Shown: positions 13,220 through 42,336 of the stretch, piece by piece
Position numbering within the stretch: position 1 is the first letter of the stretch
Layout: each line of letters begins with the position of its first letter
DNA from: Bacteroides sp.
GTDB taxonomy: Bacteria; Bacteroidota; Bacteroidia; Bacteroidales; Muribaculaceae
Assembly: GCA_014801785.1 (NCBI GenBank)
Contig: JAAVDN010000006.1
Span: forward strand, 26,511 to 75,168
Direction of reading: 5' to 3'
Length of the DNA stretch: 48,658 nucleotides
Translations under genes and position numbers: made by a program
Notes under the pieces: generated by a model
What the model was told of the DNA's origin: nothing
Databases searched by the model: none
Seen by the model: only the letters and a program-made list of their open reading frames with translations

Positions 13220-14782
13220 TCATCTGATTTTTCGGATTTCGTATCGGAGTGCGCGATCGGATCTACTGTCTGTATAATTTGCTCCAATTATAAAGATTTG
13301 GCGGGTGTCCATGGCGAAGCGTCCGCCATAATCGCGTGAAAGTAATTGGTCGATAGCTTCTCGAACGCTGTGGTTGTACTTGAATTCGAACACGTAGATG
13401 AAGCGAGAAGTCTGCACTTCAATGTCGCTGCGTCCCAAGTATCCGTGATGCTCAGCAACAGCGCGGGTACCGCTGAGGACGGTGAGCAGGTAAGTAATTG
13501 CGCGGTATGCTGATTCATTGTGGTCCTCTCCCGGGAGATCCTTGAACAGAGCCTCCAGGCGGTGCATGAAATCATCAATATTTCCTTCATACAGATCCAT
13601 CTTGAAGTCACCGAACTGAAAAGGACTGTTGACATCATAGACAAGCGGCGCGTAAACCTGCAACAGTTCTCGGTAAAAACCGCTCTCTACTTCATGATTG
13701 GGAAACCTCAGTTCGTATAAATTAGCTTCGGGACTATACTTCCAAATGGTGAGATAACCTGTCTGGAACATTAGTGGAATGGGATTCCTGTCATTAAGAC
13801 CAACAGCGGTCAGGTCTTCCGGTGTACATTTCCTGCCGTTCAGGTCAAGCGGGAAAGTGCCTGCTTTTTTGATGCGCTTCGCTAAGAAAGTCGGAGTGCC
13901 TGTCGCAAACCAGTAAGAGTTGATTTTTTGGTTATCAAGTGCGAGCAGGACGCTATACGGGTTGTAAAGGCGTGAACCCTCGGATGTGAAAAGATATCCA
14001 TCGTAGTAATTTCGCAATTCGCGGAGGGTAGTCTCGAAATCCTCTTTGCGTTTGCGGGCGAGATTCTCGATACCGGATCTGAATGTACGCAACATCTCTT
14101 CTTCAGTCCATCCGCAGATATCTGCGAACCTATCCACAAGCGATATATCCTTAAGATTATTGAGATCGCTGAAGATGCTGACACGGTTGAAGCGTGCGAC
14201 CCCCGTAAGGAACGCCAGGCGGATAAAACGGTCCATCGACTTTAAGTTACCGAAGAATCCCTTAAGTGTTGACTGATAAAGCTCGTAAAGGGGTTCCTTT
14301 TCATCCAGACTTAGAAGAGGCTTGTCGTACTCATCGATAAGGATAACCACTTTGCGCCCTGTCTTCTCGTATGCTGCCCGAATCAACTGGCGGAATCTCT
14401 GAACCGTATCCGAATACTTTGTTTCGCAACCGTACACCTCTTCCATCTCATCGAGCTGTTGACTGAGCATAGCCTCAAGACCGTCCTCTTTCCTGTAATC
14501 GGAGGAATTAAAGTCGAAATGAAGAACCGGGGCGGGTGTCCAGTCAACATCCATCGAGTCGATAGCAAGTCCTTTGAAGAGCTCGCGCTTTCCATCGAAG
14601 AAGGAGTGAAGAGTTGAAAGGAGGAGGCTTTTACCGAACCGGCGTGGACGGCTCAGGAAATAATAGCCTTCGTTGTCAACGATAGGCTTGATGTACTGAG
14701 TCTTGTCGACGTATGCGAATCCACCCTCTATAAGTTTGGAAAAGGTCTGGATTCCGACCGGATACTTAAGCTCTTCATTCAT
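13220..14782 (-). CDS. AAA-ATPase with C-terminal PD-(D/E)XK nuclease-like domain
   Basis: The product has 520 residues from ATG 14782 (ATG 14785 directly upstream is an alternative). The N-terminus (MNEELKYPVGIQTFSKLIEGGFAYVDKT as separate conserved pieces) is typical of the predicted AAA-ATPase family PF09820. Walker A is RPRRFGKSLLLSTL and Walker B is VVILIDEYDKPLL. The C-terminal 90 residues match PDDEXK_9 (PF08011), with GRSDIEV then YVFEFKYN giving the D...ExK core. These proteins occur in many copies in Bacteroidales genomes and behave like accessory genes; no physiological role is established. A decayed copy of the same family lies at 18648-18740. A promoter very close to the ATG suggests a leaderless or almost leaderless mRNA. 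Confidence 0.88.
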   Translation of the reverse strand: MNEELKYPVGIQTFSKLIEGGFAYVDKTQYIKPIVDNEGYYFLSRPRRFGKSLLLSTLHSFFDGKRELFKGLAIDSMDVDWTPAPVLHFDFNSSDYRKEDGLEAMLSQQLDEMEEVYGCETKYSDTVQRFRQLIRAAYEKTGRKVVILIDEYDKPLLSLDEKEPLYELYQSTLKGFFGNLKSMDRFIRLAFLTGVARFNRVSIFSDLNNLKDISLVDRFADICGWTEEEMLRTFRSGIENLARKRKEDFETTLRELRNYYDGYLFTSEGSRLYNPYSVLLALDNQKINSYWFATGTPTFLAKRIKKAGTFPLDLNGRKCTPEDLTAVGLNDRNPIPLMFQTGYLTIWKYSPEANLYELRFPNHEVESGFYRELLQVYAPLVYDVNSPFQFGDFKMDLYEGNIDDFMHRLEALFKDLPGEDHNESAYRAITYLLTVLSGTRAVAEHHGYLGRSDIEVQTSRFIYVFEFKYNHSVREAIDQLLSRDYGGRFAMDTRQIFIIGANYTDSRSDRALRYEIRKIR

Positions 14783-14789
14783 CATACCG

Positions 14790-14820
14790 CGAAGATAACA
14801 CAAATTCGCGTCAATTCAAA
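14790..14820 (-). promoter_or_regulatory. Probable promoter of the AAA-ATPase gene
   Basis: On the - strand TTTG (14817-14820) and TATCTTCG (14790-14797) are 19 bp apart; the -7 box has one mismatch to TAnnTTTG. ATG 14785 is only 4 nt beyond the box, so the transcript would have no or almost no leader. Confidence 0.5.
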
Positions 14821-14825
14821 ATCCT

Positions 14826-15402
14826 ATTCGCGTCAGCACTGTGATATGCCGGTGAAACCCCGGTGAGAGGATTCCTTAGGCGCGTCAGCACGGTGTCCAT
14901 CGGTGCCGATCGGGGTAATACTTCTTTCGCGACGACGTGTCGACCGCCCTCCTCTCGGCCAAGCGGACCTCACACCATGCGCCACCGATCTACACCGAAC
15001 CCTCATCAATCCGCTAAACGCAAAGCGGTGACAATCGGTGCCCATCGGAGTGATGCCCACCTTTCGCGCGAACTGAACATCACACGTATTTTTCACAGGG
15101 TTCACACGGGGCAAGACAGGCGAGCGACCACACGGAGCCCCCGCTTTCCAAGCGGGTTGCCACGGCATCCTTTCCGCAAACCATACCCCGACGAATCGAG
15201 GGAAAGGATTATCTCGCGGAACTTTTGGCTGACGCCTGGTCATCGCGTAGAATGGAACTTAACGGAACGAACGCGGAACTTTTCTATTTCCTTCTCTGTA
15301 AGGACGCCACTCAGGGAACTCTTCGGATTCTAGTTCCCGAATATTACGGAATATGGTCACTGGAAAGCCTAGTCGAGGAAACTTTTCATTTATTTCGGTA
15401 CT
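14826..15402. repeat. Non-coding stretch with degenerate repeats
   Basis: I see no convincing gene here; open frames on both strands are low-complexity and rich in Arg, Pro and Ser. Imperfect direct repeats are visible. CGCGTCAGCAC occurs near 14881-14891, with a close variant near 14829. A block of about 45 bp beginning CGGTGTCCATCGGTGCC (14891) is repeated as CGGTGACAATCGGTGCC (15026), each followed by a CTTTCGCG stretch. GGAACTT recurs near 15220-15280. Small hairpins lie at 15140-15156 (CCCGCTT/AAGCGGG) and 15314-15338 (GGGAACT/AGTTCCC). Confidence 0.45.
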
Positions 15403-15461
15403 AACCCTATAGCGTAAATTGGGAGATGCAGGTGATTCTTCTGTTAAAGACGAGTGAAGAG

Positions 15462-15492
15462 CTTGCTGGATGGAAAAATTTTATTACTTTTG
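15462..15492 (+). promoter_or_regulatory. Promoter of the structured RNA
   Basis: CTTG (15462-15465), a 19-bp spacer and TACTTTTG (15485-15492) match the Bacteroidetes consensus. No start codon with a useful frame follows; the first stem of the RNA begins 7 nt after the -7 box. Confidence 0.75.
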
Positions 15493-15497
15493 CGGGT

Positions 15498-15856
15498 GCA
15501 GACCGCCACGCAGAAGCCCCGGTCTGGGGTAGAGCGGCGCGGGATGTATCGGTCATGGCGGCGTCAATACGTCGGCAATGACCGCCATAAATACATAGAA
15601 AGCGTTTATCCGCGCTGATTCTTGACAGTCTGAAATTCTCGCAAAATTTCAAAATCGAAGTCAAGGTTCGAGCAACGGTAGATGCCCGTGGTATGTGTCA
15701 TCCTGCCTTCGGCCTATCTTTCGCGAGAAAGATAGCCGTGAGCATTGATTGCATATACGAGCGTGGGCTTCTGCGTTGCCGTCCGACTTCGATTAGGCAA
15801 TGCGAGAAGCCTCAGACTGTAGGACGGTGACAGATACAGATTCCCGCGCTTTTTTC
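15498..15856 (+). ncRNA. Candidate independently transcribed structured RNA, about 360 nt
   Basis: A promoter at 15462-15492 and a terminator-like 3' end frame this segment. The 3' arm TCCCGCGC (15842-15849) is followed by six T and pairs with GCGCGGGA (15537-15544); the same helix continues as TGTATC/GATACA (15545-15550 with 15833-15838). Enclosed helices are ATGGCGG/CCGCCAT (15555-15561, 15582-15588), CTTGAC/GTCAAG (15621-15626, 15660-15665) with inner GAAATT/AATTTC, CTATCTTTC/GAAAGATAG around GCGA (15714-15735), and a 15-bp bulged stem 15766-15780 with 15796-15811. Its loop GTCC can pair with GGAC at 15822-15825 as a pseudoknot. A 5' hairpin CAGACC/GGTCTG (15499-15526) precedes the long closing helix. 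I do not see RNase P or tmRNA signatures. The Bacteroidales-1 RNA, also defined by promoter and terminator, is one known family to test. Confidence 0.75.
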
Positions 15857-15908
15857 GTCTAACAACCTAACGCCAACGAGGGGATGACCGCGGCAACTAA
15901 ACAATTGA

Positions 15909-16571
15909 ATGCCAGTTTCAAAAGGTCGTAGCTGTACACGAGCGGAATTCGAGCAGCAAGAGTATTTATTGAAAAAGATGATAGAAGTAGTAGAAACATA
16001 CTATCACACTTCCATTGAATCTCTTCGAACTCATATCAGCCAAATTGAAGAAGAAACGAACTCCTATGACGAGTCGGTTACCCTGACTAAACAGCTTTAT
16101 GAGGAATTGGATGAAATGGTACACCAAAGATATATAGCAAGAAATAAGCTAGTAATTATAGTTTATTCCATAACCGAACAATCGCTTGCTGAAATATGCA
16201 CACAATACGTAGTGCCATTACTCTTCTCGCCACAAAATAAAGCTAAACGCTATTATTATCTGAGTGATTTCTTATTTTCACTCGGAGTTGATTATAATAC
16301 CCAAAATTCTTCGAATGCGGCCTTCATGGTACATACAGCAATTAGAGAATTGCGTAATCACTGTACCCATAGTGGAAATGATTTAGGTAGAGCGACTGCC
16401 GCTGTTGCTGCAATGGGGAAAGCAGGATTCACAGATATAGTAAGCGTAGAAGGTGTAGTACAGATTCATTCTGACACTGCATTATACAAAATTCTTCAAA
16501 TTTGTTGTTTGATGCTTGAAGAGGCAGAAGGGAAGGCGAGAAGTTTTTATGATAATTACTCTAATAAGTAG
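15909..16571 (+). CDS. HEPN-like protein with RNxxxH motif, possible ribonuclease
   Basis: The product has 220 residues, is mostly helical and has no signal peptide. Residues 146-154 read RELRNHCTH, so Arg149-Asn150 and His154 form the R-(N/H)-x3-H motif that marks the active site of HEPN ribonucleases (toxins, anti-phage nucleases, Cas accessory RNases). The surrounding helices (YYYLSDFLFSLGVDY before, ALYKILQICCLMLEEAE after) fit a HEPN fold such as the MAE_28990 or RiboL-PSP type, but the assignment rests on the motif alone. The gene is AT-rich compared with its neighbours, which suggests transfer. It begins 53 bp after the structured RNA. Its stop codon (16569-16571) lies inside the left arm of the palindromic element at 16565-16750. 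No nucleotidyltransferase partner of the usual HEPN-MNT type is adjacent. Confidence 0.6.
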   Translation: MPVSKGRSCTRAEFEQQEYLLKKMIEVVETYYHTSIESLRTHISQIEEETNSYDESVTLTKQLYEELDEMVHQRYIARNKLVIIVYSITEQSLAEICTQYVVPLLFSPQNKAKRYYYLSDFLFSLGVDYNTQNSSNAAFMVHTAIRELRNHCTHSGNDLGRATAAVAAMGKAGFTDIVSVEGVVQIHSDTALYKILQICCLMLEEAEGKARSFYDNYSNK

Positions 16572-16750
16572 CTCTCGGAAATTAAGGAGAATATAAAACG
16601 TAGTTATCGCACCGACCGTTCGGCCGCGGAGCGAAGGAGCTTATCGGGATAAGCAACTGAACGACAAGGCCGAACGGCAAGCGAGAGCAAGTTTTATAGT
16701 TCAAGATAAAGGTAATTCCATAATATCGATTAATTTTTTAGAGCTACTTA
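16565..16750. repeat. Nested palindromic element with 11-bp terminal inverted repeats
   Basis: The ends are perfect inverted repeats, TAAGTAGCTCT (16565-16575) and AGAGCTACTTA (16740-16750). Inside are TATAAAAC/GTTTTATA (16592-16599, 16691-16698), TCGC/GCGA (16607-16610, 16681-16684), CCGTTCGGCC/GGCCGAACGG (16616-16625, 16668-16677) and a central GCTTATCGGGATAAGC hairpin (16639-16654). The core is GC-rich and the arms AT-rich. I see no clear target-site duplication. It could be a MITE-like element, a REP-type sequence, or a folded RNA. Confidence 0.7.
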
Positions 16751-16851
16751 CCAAATTATGAGGATGGTTATGTTGATGCCGAGAACGAGAAATTCTTGTT
16801 CATGACCGTTTGCTAAATAATAAAGTTGTCAAATTTATAGATTTTAATAAT

Positions 16852-18465
16852 ATGTATATAAAATTTTTCACGTGTCATGCGGATTCTTTCGTAAAAGGCC
16901 CGAGGGACTTAGTTTCCGAGAAGTCTGGGCTATTAGATCCTAATGGGTCTTCGGCAGTCTATCCAGAATCAACCGAGTCCTATTGGGCTTCTGTGGCATT
17001 CCACAACAGTGGCAAGGTGTGGCAGAGTCGGGTAGTTCTCCTGATTGTTTTAATTCTGAGTTTGATCAGCTATCCGTTAACTCTCAAAGCAGAAATTCTT
17101 TACCAAGGAGAATACGCCTTTTCAATAATCTCTAATTTAGAGAGATTATGCGCACTTGAGTATAATGACAAGCAACCATATCAGGGTGATTTCATAATTC
17201 CGGAATCTATCGAATACGACGGTGAAGTCTACAGAGTGTATCAAGTGAACGCAAGAGCTTTCGAATCTTCTTATGATCCTTATGAAGGGCATGAGGTAGG
17301 CAAACTCACTTCTCTTACAATTCCTCCTACATTAAAGGTATTAAAAAATCCAGTATTTGGTGATAATATTTGGAGTCTTAAAAAATTAATTATTCAAGAT
17401 TCCCCGGATGAACTGGCATTGGGTACTCTTTCTCATCATGAGCTAGGAGTATCGATAAAAGAATTATATTTAGGACGGAATGTATCCTTTGAGATATGGC
17501 GTCGGGACAATTACAATCCCGGTTGGCCCTACGGTCCTTTCGGTTATATTGAAAAGGTTGTGATGTCAGATTATGTTACTAAAATACCCAGTTATCTTTT
17601 CCGTGGTTGTTCTCGGACAATTAAAGAATTAGTATTTAGTCCCAATATAATTGAAATTGGCGAATTCTCGTTTATAAATGCGTTATCTATAACTAGTTTA
17701 ACTATACCTGAGCATGTGGTAAAAATTGACAATTATGCCTTTAGTGATAATTCAAGTCTGCAGGATGTTATATTGCCATCATGTTTAGAAGAAATAGGCT
17801 CCTATGCCTTCGGTAGTAGTTATCGAGGTTGGGAAGAAAATATTAGCGTAGTACTCTGTCATGCTACTGTTCCTCCGCTTGCTTCCGGAACTGCATTCGG
17901 AAAACGATCTAAGAGTATAAGGCTGAGAGTTCCATCTGAAGCTGTAAGGGAATATAAAGAGGCTGAAACATGGAAGGAATTCGGAGATATACTTTCATTA
18001 GACGGTGTCTCCTCGCCTTATCCTAATGTAGTATCATTGTCATGCCTATTTGATAATGGAAGTTTAATAAGAGAGAATGTTAGGAGCGGAGAATCCAAAA
18101 CTCTCGAATTTAAGGCAGCCGATGGTTATGTTATTCATTCCGTGTCTGTAAATGGAGATGAGATGGATAGATTATCAGGTGAGTATGTCTCCCTTCAACT
18201 AGAGTCTATTAATGAGGATACTTGTATTCAGGTAATTTACGAAGAGATAGGAGACTCTTCGATCGTTCAAAAGAGAGTTTCTGATATAAGAATTGGAATT
18301 GACTGTAACATTATTAAGATATTTGGTAATTTTAATTCGGCAAAACTATTCTCTGTTGCAGGAGAGTGCTTGTATGCTGGTTCGGCAGATACAATCGAAA
18401 TTAGCCAGAAGGGATTGATGATATTAGAAGTTGATTCGCGAAGATTCAAGTTTATGATATTTTGA
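16852..18465 (+). CDS. BspA-type leucine-rich repeat surface protein
   Basis: LRR_5/BspA-like repeats are visible: LTSLTIPPTLKVLKNPVF, IKELVFSPNIIEIGEFSF, ITSLTIPEHVVKIDNYAF and LQDVILPSCLEEIGSYAF. These form a right-handed solenoid used for adhesion in Bacteroidetes. A beta domain (GYVIHSVSVNGDEM) and a short C-terminal domain (AKLFSVAGECLYAG, then LEVDSRRFKFMIF) resembling a sorting domain follow. The start is uncertain. ATG 16852 puts 55 residues before the only signal-peptide-like segment (RVVLLIVLILSLISYPLTLKA), while GTG 17017 would place that segment at the N-terminus. The gene is much AT-richer than most of the window, suggesting horizontal transfer. A partner or ligand cannot be named. 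Confidence 0.75.
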   Translation: MYIKFFTCHADSFVKGPRDLVSEKSGLLDPNGSSAVYPESTESYWASVAFHNSGKVWQSRVVLLIVLILSLISYPLTLKAEILYQGEYAFSIISNLERLCALEYNDKQPYQGDFIIPESIEYDGEVYRVYQVNARAFESSYDPYEGHEVGKLTSLTIPPTLKVLKNPVFGDNIWSLKKLIIQDSPDELALGTLSHHELGVSIKELYLGRNVSFEIWRRDNYNPGWPYGPFGYIEKVVMSDYVTKIPSYLFRGCSRTIKELVFSPNIIEIGEFSFINALSITSLTIPEHVVKIDNYAFSDNSSLQDVILPSCLEEIGSYAFGSSYRGWEENISVVLCHATVPPLASGTAFGKRSKSIRLRVPSEAVREYKEAETWKEFGDILSLDGVSSPYPNVVSLSCLFDNGSLIRENVRSGESKTLEFKAADGYVIHSVSVNGDEMDRLSGEYVSLQLESINEDTCIQVIYEEIGDSSIVQKRVSDIRIGIDCNIIKIFGNFNSAKLFSVAGECLYAGSADTIEISQKGLMILEVDSRRFKFMIF

Positions 18466-18500
18466 AAGTAAGGCTGTCCAAGAGAGGACAGCCTTACTTT
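18465..18500 (+). terminator. Terminator after the LRR gene
   Basis: AAAGTAAGGCTGTCC (18465-18479) and GGACAGCCTTACTTT (18486-18500) form a perfect 15-bp stem that begins inside the stop codon. The T-run is short (within the stem and ACTTTATAT). Confidence 0.75.
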
Positions 18501-18740: not shown

Positions 18741-20111
18741 TTACCTGTCGGCGGTGCCGTAGCGGGAGATGGCGTATGCAGGAATGATGAGGATCTCGGC
18801 AGGGGAATTCCCGTTCGAGATTTCCAGTCGTCCGAAATTCTCCAGAGAGCATCGTAGGCCGGTCGTCAGATTTTTCTTTTCCATGAACAGGCGCAGGCTT
18901 TTCATCTTGCCGCTCGTTCCGGCTTTTACCTCCAAAGGCAATACCTTCCCTTGATTACCGAGAATATAATCCACTTCCGAGGATGTACCGGATGCTATGT
19001 TCTGCCAATAATACATGAAACAACGCCTTCGAGAGTCGGAATTCTTCAATAATTCCAAGCCCACGGACAATTCAGCCATTGCTCCCTTATTGACCAAGTC
19101 GGCGGCAGATCCCGTCAGGATCAGTTCGGTGAGCTCGTTCTGCCCGGCCTGGTCAAACGACATGGCCCGCATCAACAGACCGGTATCCAAATAAAGGTAC
19201 TTGAAAAATTTAGGATTGACTTCAGCTCCCAAAGGAAGACCGTTGGCGGTGGAATACTCCACAAGATGTATCAACCCTGCATCTTTAAGCATAGTCAGGG
19301 CTTGCTTCACGTCGTTTTCATGGTAGCCTCCTGCGACGTTGCTATACATGAATTTACGACCTACTTGTCGGATGACACTTTGCAAAGTGTTGTTAAGTAA
19401 CGTGATATCCACCGATTTGGCATATTTGTTGAAGTCATCGTAATATGACTCCTGGATGTCCGTCAGTTCATCGATGCATACGTTGAAATCGCGAGTCTCT
19501 ACCCACGCGTTGACGCTTGCGGGCATTCCTCCGACAATCAGGAACATGCGGTAGCTGTTTACCAATTGAGAGTGGAGCGGCTCGAAAAGCGGTGAGTCGG
19601 GGGAGGCCTCACATATAGCGGTCGTCCATGCGTCTTTCTGCTCAGCCCATAGATATTCCTCGTAATCCATAGGGTACATATACATCGAGGTGATTCTGCC
19701 GACACCGTAGGAGGGCATCTTCTTGATTGCGAATTCAAGCAATGAACCTGCGGCTATGACGTGAAGTCCGGGTAACCGCTCCTTAAAGAACCATAGCGCA
19801 TGAATGGCTGCAGGACAGACCTGCACTTCGTCCAGAAACAGCAGTGTCTTTCCCTCTACTATCGTCTGGCCGAAGAGAATACCGAGACGATTGCATATTT
19901 CCTCGATTTCCAGATTCATCTCGAACAGTCTGCGCGCTTCCGGGACCTCTTCGAAATTCACTTCCAGAAAACTGTCAAATGATTCCCCTAAATGTCTTAC
20001 GGAATAAGATTTACCGACTTGTCGCGCTCCGCGCAGGAGTAAGGGTTTCCGCCGTGGGGACTCCTTCCATTTCAGCAGTTGAGCGTCTATTTTTCGTCTT
20101 AGATACTTCAT
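18741..20111 (-). CDS. AAA_14 ATPase with C-terminal DUF4143 domain
   Basis: ATG 20111 (MKYLRRKID) is preferred over an earlier in-frame ATG at 20168 because family members start this way. The product has 456 residues. Walker A is LLRGARQVGKSYSVRHL and Walker B TLLFLDEVQ, followed by AAGSLLEFAI (sensor region) and the GMP-x3-W type segment LIVGGMPASVNAWVE typical of these proteins. The C-terminal DUF4143 part contains SEVDYILGNQGKVLPLEVKAG, a D...ExK pattern of a PD-(D/E)XK fold. These ATPases are widespread accessory genes in Bacteroidales; claims of a toxin or defence role are not established. It is monocistronic as far as can be seen, between a decayed ATPase remnant and a tandem repeat. 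Confidence 0.88.
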   Translation of the reverse strand: MKYLRRKIDAQLLKWKESPRRKPLLLRGARQVGKSYSVRHLGESFDSFLEVNFEEVPEARRLFEMNLEIEEICNRLGILFGQTIVEGKTLLFLDEVQVCPAAIHALWFFKERLPGLHVIAAGSLLEFAIKKMPSYGVGRITSMYMYPMDYEEYLWAEQKDAWTTAICEASPDSPLFEPLHSQLVNSYRMFLIVGGMPASVNAWVETRDFNVCIDELTDIQESYYDDFNKYAKSVDITLLNNTLQSVIRQVGRKFMYSNVAGGYHENDVKQALTMLKDAGLIHLVEYSTANGLPLGAEVNPKFFKYLYLDTGLLMRAMSFDQAGQNELTELILTGSAADLVNKGAMAELSVGLELLKNSDSRRRCFMYYWQNIASGTSSEVDYILGNQGKVLPLEVKAGTSGKMKSLRLFMEKKNLTTGLRCSLENFGRLEISNGNSPAEILIIPAYAISRYGTADR

Positions 20112-20185
20112 TTCTCGGTCGCATTGATGATAGGGTGCTAAGTTAATGAATAAATCCCATATAACCAAATAGTTAGGTGAATATT

Positions 20186-42261: not shown

Positions 42262-42336
42262 TGATCCATACTGGACTCGAACCAGTGACCTCCTCCCTGT
42301 CAAGGAGGCGCTCTAAACCAACTGAGCTAATGAATC
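42262..42336 (-). tRNA. tRNA-Val (anticodon GAC)
   Basis: The 75-nt cloverleaf reads: acceptor GATTCAT/ATGGATC with one G-U pair, D-stem GCTC/GAGC, anticodon stem CCTCC/GGAGG with loop TTGACAG, giving anticodon GAC (Val, codons GUC and GUU), and T-stem ACTGG/CCAGT with loop TTCGAGT. Discriminator is A. CCA is not encoded (CTC follows). A consensus promoter lies about 60 bp upstream and a terminator directly downstream, so the gene is transcribed alone. Confidence 0.95.

Follow-up and report, generated by a model that had tools for sequence, protein, structure and literature searches.

Transcription attenuators and riboswitches lie in the 5′ leader of a gene that begins just behind them, carry a terminator and an antiterminator that exclude each other, and have a T-run. 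T-box riboswitches are long leaders with early hairpins and an antiterminator that competes with the terminator, and UpxY, LoaP, EAR, and put are antitermination leaders of accessory operons. For the order Bacteroidales, Rfam holds the structured RNA Bacteroidales-1 (RF01693), which stands with Bacteroides-1, Bacteroides-2, and Bacteroid-trp in the motif table of PMC2864571.

We analyzed a 48,658-nucleotide stretch of a Muribaculaceae genome (the window; GCA_014801785.1, contig JAAVDN010000006.1, positions 26,511 to 75,168), in which positions 15462-15856 of the forward strand hold an RNA of about 350 nt. Comparison and calculation show that this RNA belongs to a family, that the family has a characteristic position ahead of genes, and that it has two conserved folds, covarying long-range helices, and covariation in the linker to the next gene. 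With attenuators and riboswitches it shares the leader position, the exclusive terminator and antiterminator, the T-run, and the gene just behind, but it differs from them in its length, in occurring one to 16 times per genome ahead of genes that are mostly unrelated, and in combining a six-helix long-range rod with a covarying loop behind the terminator. It resembles the T-box in its long leader, early hairpins, and competing terminator, but Rfam scans of the RNA gave no T-box match. Like the UpxY, LoaP, EAR, and put leaders it lies ahead of accessory operons, and three copies precede UpxY genes, but it is absent from 19 of 20 UpxY/NusG-like loci and has a terminator of its own.

Results

An RNA family absent from Rfam

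At the gathering cutoff, Rfam 15 matches only one feature in the whole window, a tRNA gene at 42262-42336 on the minus strand, and leaves the RNA unmatched. With E values up to 10, positions 15300-16000 yield mir-54, mir-208, and GlsR24 only, all far below their cutoffs, and 12 loci with other copies of the RNA yield a single tRNA at E up to 0.1. In these scans the RNA matches none of the RNase P, tmRNA, SRP, 6S, T-box, and Bacteroidales-1 models, which agrees with an earlier model reading made without database searches (the sequence-only reading) that had recognized none of the first four and had named Bacteroidales-1 as a family to compare. The genome's only Bacteroidales-1 match lies elsewhere (G000:C9:232783-232974), and no copy of our RNA was found there. 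No such RNA is named in the titles and abstract openings of the literature listings; PMC8040213 places 3161 intergenic candidates in its supplements, where this RNA may already be listed. We therefore use "undescribed" for the family strictly in the sense of absent from Rfam 15 and from the literature listings examined.

Framing signals

The signals that frame the RNA, and the gene behind it, are as follows.

15463-15492, plus strand: Bacteroidetes-type promoter read in the sequence, TTG (15463-15465), N19, TACTTTTG (15485-15492)
15850-15855, plus strand: T-run TTTTTT behind the terminator hairpin
15872-15894, plus strand: conserved post-terminator element GCC-AACGAGGGGATGACC-GCGGC, ahead of the next gene
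15909-16571, plus strand: downstream gene, hypothetical protein of 220 aa, start 54 nt behind the profile match

The sequence-only reading had described an independently transcribed structured RNA, framed by a consensus promoter and a T-run and devoid of a good coding frame. Both framing signals are present. No sigma-70 site was found at the start of the RNA; the promoter TTG-N19-TACTTTTG is of the Bacteroidetes type, from which transcription would be expected to start near 15496-15500, at about 15498. TAnnTTTG lies near the 5′ end in 73 of 75 copies and TTG at the expected distance in 51, counts that are partly selected because the 75 copies were chosen by a profile match reaching the promoter columns. 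At the match end, 85 of 100 copies have a TTTT somewhere from 8 nt before to 4 nt behind it, and the other 15 lack one there. The RNA is also structured: 15462-15856 is predicted to fold at −171 kcal/mol, while dinucleotide shuffles average −125 (z −7.5; 0 of 100 as low). No plus-strand ORF of at least 60 aa crosses the stretch, and copies differ by indels, on which grounds we rejected a protein-coding explanation; a minus-strand ORF of 85 aa overlaps its start. Two parts of the earlier description did not hold. Stand-alone transcription is unsupported, because the RNA's position and its linker point to a 5′ leader of the gene that follows. The feature also continues past 15856, with a second conserved element at 15872-15894.

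Copies and distribution

The RNA at 15462-15856 is one copy of a conserved multicopy family. A DNA search of its own genome gives seven matches at six places, and a covariance model of the 3′ domain (R1; 103 positions, 17 pairs) also gives six. Among relatives, DNA search finds the RNA in 32 of 61 genomes: within the genus 31 of 37 match, counting the window's own genome, and from the rest of the order 1 of 24. A conserved 15-mer occurs in at least 117 stretches of public genomes, with Duncaniella muris DSM 103720, Heminiphilus faecis AM35, and Barnesiella sp. WM24 among the named strains that carry the RNA. Within the taxonomic family R1 matches 107 of 119 genomes, covering 28 of 30 genera with up to 16 matches in a genome, and within the order it matches 41 of 294 genomes, 36 of these 41 coming from 17 other families; in a phylum sample it matches 1 of 296 genomes, the window's own, and 0 of the 295 others. 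These R1 counts are lower bounds because filtering was stricter in the family, order, and phylum searches and no more than 13 to 33 candidates were scored in each genome. Profile copies, among the matches listed, come from Duncaniella, Paramuribaculum, Muribaculum, Heminiphilus, Amulumruptor, Barnesiella, Bacteroides, Prevotella, and Xylanibacter records. Two further copies, L071 (Pseudoflavonifractor) and L084 (Pseudobutyrivibrio), sit in metagenome bins labeled Firmicutes, outside Bacteroidales by label; these bins may be misbinned.

For counts across the family we used 100 distinct copies with a profile E value below 1e-12 and a 3′ end past position 300, counting identical copies once and retaining near-identical ones; weaker matches (L111, L118, L152, L159), 5′ fragments, and antisense self-matches were dropped.

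Position ahead of mostly unrelated genes

Where 400 nt or more follow the copy, the next ORF runs in the same direction in 87 of 91 and in the opposite one in 4; upstream, the nearest ORF shares the copy's direction in 52 of 83. With ORFs called mechanically (at least 60 aa, longest first), the first one starts 40 to 90 nt behind the RNA in 61 of 87 copies, closer than 40 nt in 14, and beyond 90 nt in 12 (median, 56); in the cargo set, where 20 starts (below 42 nt or not ATG) were shifted to a later ATG, the median of 57 nt is partly imposed. An exact TAnnTTTG was found in none of 81 linkers, and the cargo genes therefore lack an evident promoter of their own there, the motif standing at the 5′ end of the RNA instead. 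An attenuator is expected to occupy the 5′ leader of a gene that runs in its own direction, and by position this is what the 87 copies display; the RNA is probably the 5′ leader of whichever gene comes next.

In the window that gene, presumed to be controlled by the RNA, encodes the 220-aa protein at 15909-16571, for which neither Pfam (at E 0.001) nor PADLOC has a matching family. By eye we noticed RNHCTH in it, which we liken to the RxxxxH motif of HEPN nucleases; a HEPN or defense reading of the protein was rejected, as Pfam, PADLOC, and PDB gave no significant match.

The 86 first cargo genes are mostly unrelated between copies: 13 groups have two or more members, the largest has 15, and the remainder are singletons. 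By a simple rule, 46 of the 86 look secreted. Pfam searches of 80 first-gene proteins (set A3; 79 of the 86 listed plus the window's) found 14 LRR_5 (BspA-type) proteins, 6 with Big_2 domains, and one or two each of C10 peptidase, TerB, VWA, FHA, and others, and NCBIfam found a radical-SAM CXXX-repeat peptide maturase; these results rest on 25 of 38 Pfam and 25 of 61 NCBIfam families. Within those families the cargo is mixed, with no common metabolic theme, no amino-acid or tRNA-synthetase family, and no hint of a ligand. A distant ORF downstream of copy L102 (436 nt away) has a weak pheT match far below the cutoff. UpxY-family antiterminator genes lie directly behind the RNA in three genomes (L058, L078, L216), two of which are labeled Prevotella or Prevotellaceae. 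The RNA accompanies one cargo family at 7 of 10 loci, an eighth locus showing a very weak match at the corresponding position, and another at 3 of 21; homologues without it at E 0.01 number 3 of 10 and 18 of 21, respectively. The link between RNA and cargo is therefore frequent yet can be lost or gained.

Several features of the neighborhoods were noted in passing. In the KKVAVYVEGD cargo family (L240-L259), neighboring pairs of related genes lie behind the RNA. The window's RNA is flanked by AAA-ATPase_like/PDDEXK_9 (13220-14803) and AAA_14/DUF4143 (18741-20168) genes, and ORFs similar by eye to AAA-ATPase types flank copies L038, L044, L050, and L052; such genes may just be abundant. No reverse transcriptase, the neighbor that a retron or similar RNA would have, occurs among four flanking proteins or the 25 of 38 Pfam families listed for the 80 first genes. 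Positions 16000-18500, which hold the unknown protein and an LRR_5 protein, have a GC content of 0.35 to 0.42 against about 0.50 on both sides, as if this AT-rich cargo stretch had been acquired.

Two conserved, mutually exclusive folds

Pairing was scored mainly in 57 full copies (set A4), hand-picked from 72 references plus the window; within it L187 repeats the window, and L055 and L191 are one locus. A further set, A2, comprises 52 of 68 sequences (67 plus the window's). The elements, all on the plus strand, are listed with the share of cells paired and the pairs that change on both sides.

15501-15505 with 15520-15524, plus strand: 5′ hairpin S1; 86.2% paired, 4 of 5 pairs change both sides
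S1 loop with 15765-15774, plus strand: S15; 85.6% paired, weak covariation
15599-15616, plus strand: AAAGCGT arm, with the S4 hairpin and the rod closing helix as alternatives
15601-15605 with 15612-15616, plus strand: local hairpin S4; 95-97% paired
15599-15605 with 15846-15852, plus strand: rod closing helix, in the predicted minimum fold
15618-15626 with 15660-15668, plus strand: hairpin S5; 93.4% paired, 8 of 9 counted pairs change both sides
15626-15631 with 15814-15819, plus strand: S6; five pairs beyond the tree-based null
15636-15643 with 15801-15808, plus strand: S8; 99.3% paired, 3 of 8 pairs changed both sides
15653-15660 with 15787-15794, plus strand: S9; one pair beyond the tree-based null
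15672-15677 with 15774-15779, plus strand: S10; 97.7% paired, 2 of 6 pairs change both sides
15684-15687 with 15765-15768, plus strand: S11; 95.2% paired, 0 of 4 pairs change both sides
15692-15697 with 15750-15755, plus strand: S12; 84.2% paired, 2 of 6 pairs change both sides
15761-15767 with 15843-15849, plus strand: terminator S14; 98.7% paired, 3 of 7 pairs change both sides
15770-15773 with 15837-15840, plus strand: terminator S14b; 88.3% paired, 1 of 4 pairs changes both sides
15775-15784 with 15822-15831, plus strand: terminator S13; 91.5% paired, 6 of 10 pairs change both sides

These helices make up two folds. Fold T (S1, S4, S5, S7, S13, S14, and S14b), whose terminator hairpin looks like a stop signal for the gene's message, has 92.5% of cells paired in the 57 copies and both-side changes in 26 of 46 pairs; 0 of 500 shuffles were as good. 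Fold AT, the rod (S4, S6, S8, S9, S10, S11, and S12), has 92.0% paired and both-side changes in 21 of 42 pairs, with a covariation of 0.331 against 0.138 in shuffles and 288 cells against 97; 9 of 500 shuffles reached its number of further pair types, and none reached the other measures. When the 3′ partners are slid by one to three columns, both folds fall to 31-47% paired. Within 15765-15779 the same bases serve S10 and S11 in one fold and S13 and S14 in the other, and the 5′ arms of S6, S8, and S9 lie within S5; as plain helices the two folds are thus incompatible. What distinguishes an attenuator, a conserved terminator and a conserved antiterminator that exclude each other, is therefore present.

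The strongest covariation, in 95 aligned copies, joins 15627-15631 with 15814-15818 and 15653-15659 with 15788-15794. Against a tree-aware null (60 simulations replaying substitutions on the tree, by our own script modeled on R-scape's idea), no null value reaches those of five S6 pairs and one S9 pair, and another two S9 pairs stand at E 0.08 and 0.12; apart from S6 and S9 no pair reaches E 0.5, so the terminator helices and S10 to S12 are not significant pair by pair. S10 and S11, through which the rod conflicts with the terminator, hardly vary (both sides change in 2 of 10 pairs), and conservation and simpler counts argue for their pairs and those of the terminator. In distant copies the S8 block changes from CUCGCA/UGCGAG to CUUCGCA/UGCGAAG, UCUGGUA/UACCAGA, or UCUAGCA/UGCUAGA. 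The S6 and S9 arms pair at 0.91 within a copy against 0.49 between copies, which favors pairing within the molecule; trans pairing between copies of the RNA was rejected on the same figures.

The sequence-only reading had proposed two exclusive folds and named covariation among homologues as the check; exclusive folds are borne out, albeit through partly different helices. Its bulged stem appears to be S10/S11 (15672-15687 with 15765-15779), kept in 95-98% of cells, and the clearly covarying helices (15627-15659 with 15788-15818) are ones it did not name. Its 14-bp closing helix is present in the window but is rejected as a conserved element: in its own register it pairs in 59.3% of cells against 59.9% after shuffling (57 copies), and 456 of 500 shuffles are as high. 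A GGGA/UCCC core of it is partly kept (31-48 of 55-57 copies), and the arm CCCGCGC pairs instead with GCGTGGG (15761-15767) in 98.7% of cells. The rod closing pairing of 15599-15605 with 15846-15852 is paired in 51-57 of 56-57 copies and, being nearly invariant, admits no covariation test. The 12-bp switch that it saw between ACGCAGAAGCCC (15508-15519) and GGGCTTCTGCGT (15765-15776) is exact, and its 10-bp core, our S15, is kept in 85.6%, but with little covariation (0.137 against 0.126 shuffled; 7 of 500 shuffles as high); that this helix is the main switch is possible.

Folding energies, which take no account of pseudoknots, proteins, or kinetics, favor the rod: more than half of the pairs of S6, S8, S10, and S11 are in the minimum fold of 55 of 57 copies, and a forced terminator fold is higher by a median of 13 kcal/mol and is the lower one in 2 of 57. 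In growing prefixes S5 is present until 15779 and the rod replaces it from 15793 on; S5 is lost once 15787-15793 has been made, before the 3′ arm of the terminator exists, and terminator helices were not seen in these prefixes. Read literally, the model would make read-through the default and have termination need something that holds S5, a hairpin with a U-U at 15619/15667 in the window and our proposed sensor.

A covarying element behind the terminator

The window's linker carries the hairpin GCC-AACGAGGGGAUGACC-GCGGC (15872-15894), which alone is not stable (z −0.11). Of 127 linkers, 63 carry a hairpin with a GG(G)A(A/G)UC-like loop on very different stems, whereas 20 rounds of shuffling gave 23 on average and at most 32. 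In the window, pairing is conceivable between GGGAU (15881-15885) and AUUCC (15840-15844) in the 3′ arm of the terminator, and across copies a base of the linker loop covaries with the arm base at 15841. Of 131 linkers, 68 could be classed: with U in the arm the loop is of A type in 50 and of G type in 5, and with C it is of A type in 2 and of G type in 11 (phi 0.70; reached by 0 of 3000 tree simulations of the loop trait). Removing copies at least 90% identical leaves 43, 5, 2, and 11 in the same order (61 linkers; phi 0.69; 0 of 3000); the loop classes were set after a first look at the data, which makes the association provisional. If it holds, such pairing would be confined to read-through RNA in which the terminator is open.

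Discussion

We think it rather probable that the RNA is a cis-acting transcription attenuator in the 5′ leader of the gene at 15909. On this reading RNA polymerase would start at about 15498, and the early hairpin S5 would form first. Once 15750-15820 had been made, the RNA would rearrange into the long rod (S6, S8, S9, S10, S11, and S12), and read-through would be the default because the rod would hold the 5′ arm of the terminator. A factor on the 5′ half (a small molecule, a protein, or an RNA) might keep S5 closed and so prevent the rod, in which case 15761-15784 would pair with 15822-15849 and transcription would stop at the T-run. In the read-through message the linker loop would pair with the freed GAUUCC arm and lock the open state ahead of the start codon. 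That termination happens, which way control runs, and that a ligand exists are steps we infer; for the direction, a default of read-through with an off signal, our confidence falls somewhat short of even.

The rod might instead bind RNA polymerase or a NusG-type factor and carry transcription past terminators in accessory operons, in the manner of the put and EAR RNAs and the UpxY leaders. The UpxY-family genes directly behind the RNA in three genomes, the surface-protein genes among the cargo, and the stability of the rod all speak for such processive antitermination, but ten genomes yielded 20 UpxY/NusG-like loci, 8 of which pass the family cutoff, and the RNA lies upstream of only 1 of these 20, a count on which we also rejected a general UpxY leader, and its own genome has six copies and no UpxY above the cutoff. 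The window carries CGGTAG at 15676-15681, which resembles the consensus of the ops element, but it is missing from several distant copies, and an ops element was rejected. The built-in terminator suffices to account for two folds, and we regard processive antitermination as unlikely.

The promoter, the strong self-contained fold, the T-run, and the very conserved sequence motifs would also fit a structured RNA that acts in trans, has a promoter and a terminator to itself, and merely happens to precede genes, these being read by leaky termination or from unseen promoters. It would need neither the spacing to genes nor promoter-less linkers nor an element behind the terminator, whereas the RNA stands co-directional with, and usually 40 to 90 nt ahead of, mostly unrelated genes, the linkers hold no exact promoter motif, and the conserved element behind the terminator covaries with the terminator. 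We consider a trans-acting RNA quite unlikely.

Multiple copies before mostly unrelated cargo, the AT-rich cargo of the window, and the AAA-ATPase-type ORFs, alike by eye, that flank several copies could also indicate a mobile or cassette unit, in which the DNA repeat is a recombination or insertion site with cargo exchanged behind it. Such a unit is improbable in view of the compensatory changes, which show selection on RNA pairing, and of the nearly fixed orientation to the cargo. Moreover, 50,697 phage and 72,556 plasmid records gave no match to the RNA at blastn sensitivity, and six IMG/VR contigs sharing an 18-mer held the short motif only and no copy in the stretches fetched; these searches lend no support to a phage or plasmid origin. 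Finally, an RNA antitoxin or guide paired with the downstream protein, perhaps HEPN-like here, is hardly credible despite the RNHCTH of the window's next gene and the few cargo genes that resemble stress or conflict proteins (TerB, VWA, FHA), given mostly unrelated next genes of which over half look secreted (46 of 86), a 220-aa protein without a PADLOC match, and no direct repeat of at least 12 nt in 15400-15920, where type III antitoxins carry direct repeats.

Returning to the attenuator, we tentatively suggest, at less than even confidence, that the family is a Bacteroidales class of bistable leader RNA that serves as a global switch whatever gene it controls, in up to 16 copies per genome. 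If this is true, accessory genes as diverse as adhesins, secreted proteins, radical-SAM peptides, VWA/kinase modules, and antiterminators would be under one signal, a docking loop behind the terminator would secure the read-through state, and the RNA would represent a new large class of riboswitch or RNA-protein switch spanning a whole order of gut bacteria. For RNA biology the family would be instructive in two respects: its terminator/antiterminator pair involves copy-specific, clearly covarying long-range helices, and its conserved loop past the terminator would be able to act only after polymerase has passed. Muribaculaceae are abundant gut bacteria whose gene control is little known, and if the attenuator reading holds, a single signal would, through one RNA class, set the expression of many accessory and surface genes throughout the order.
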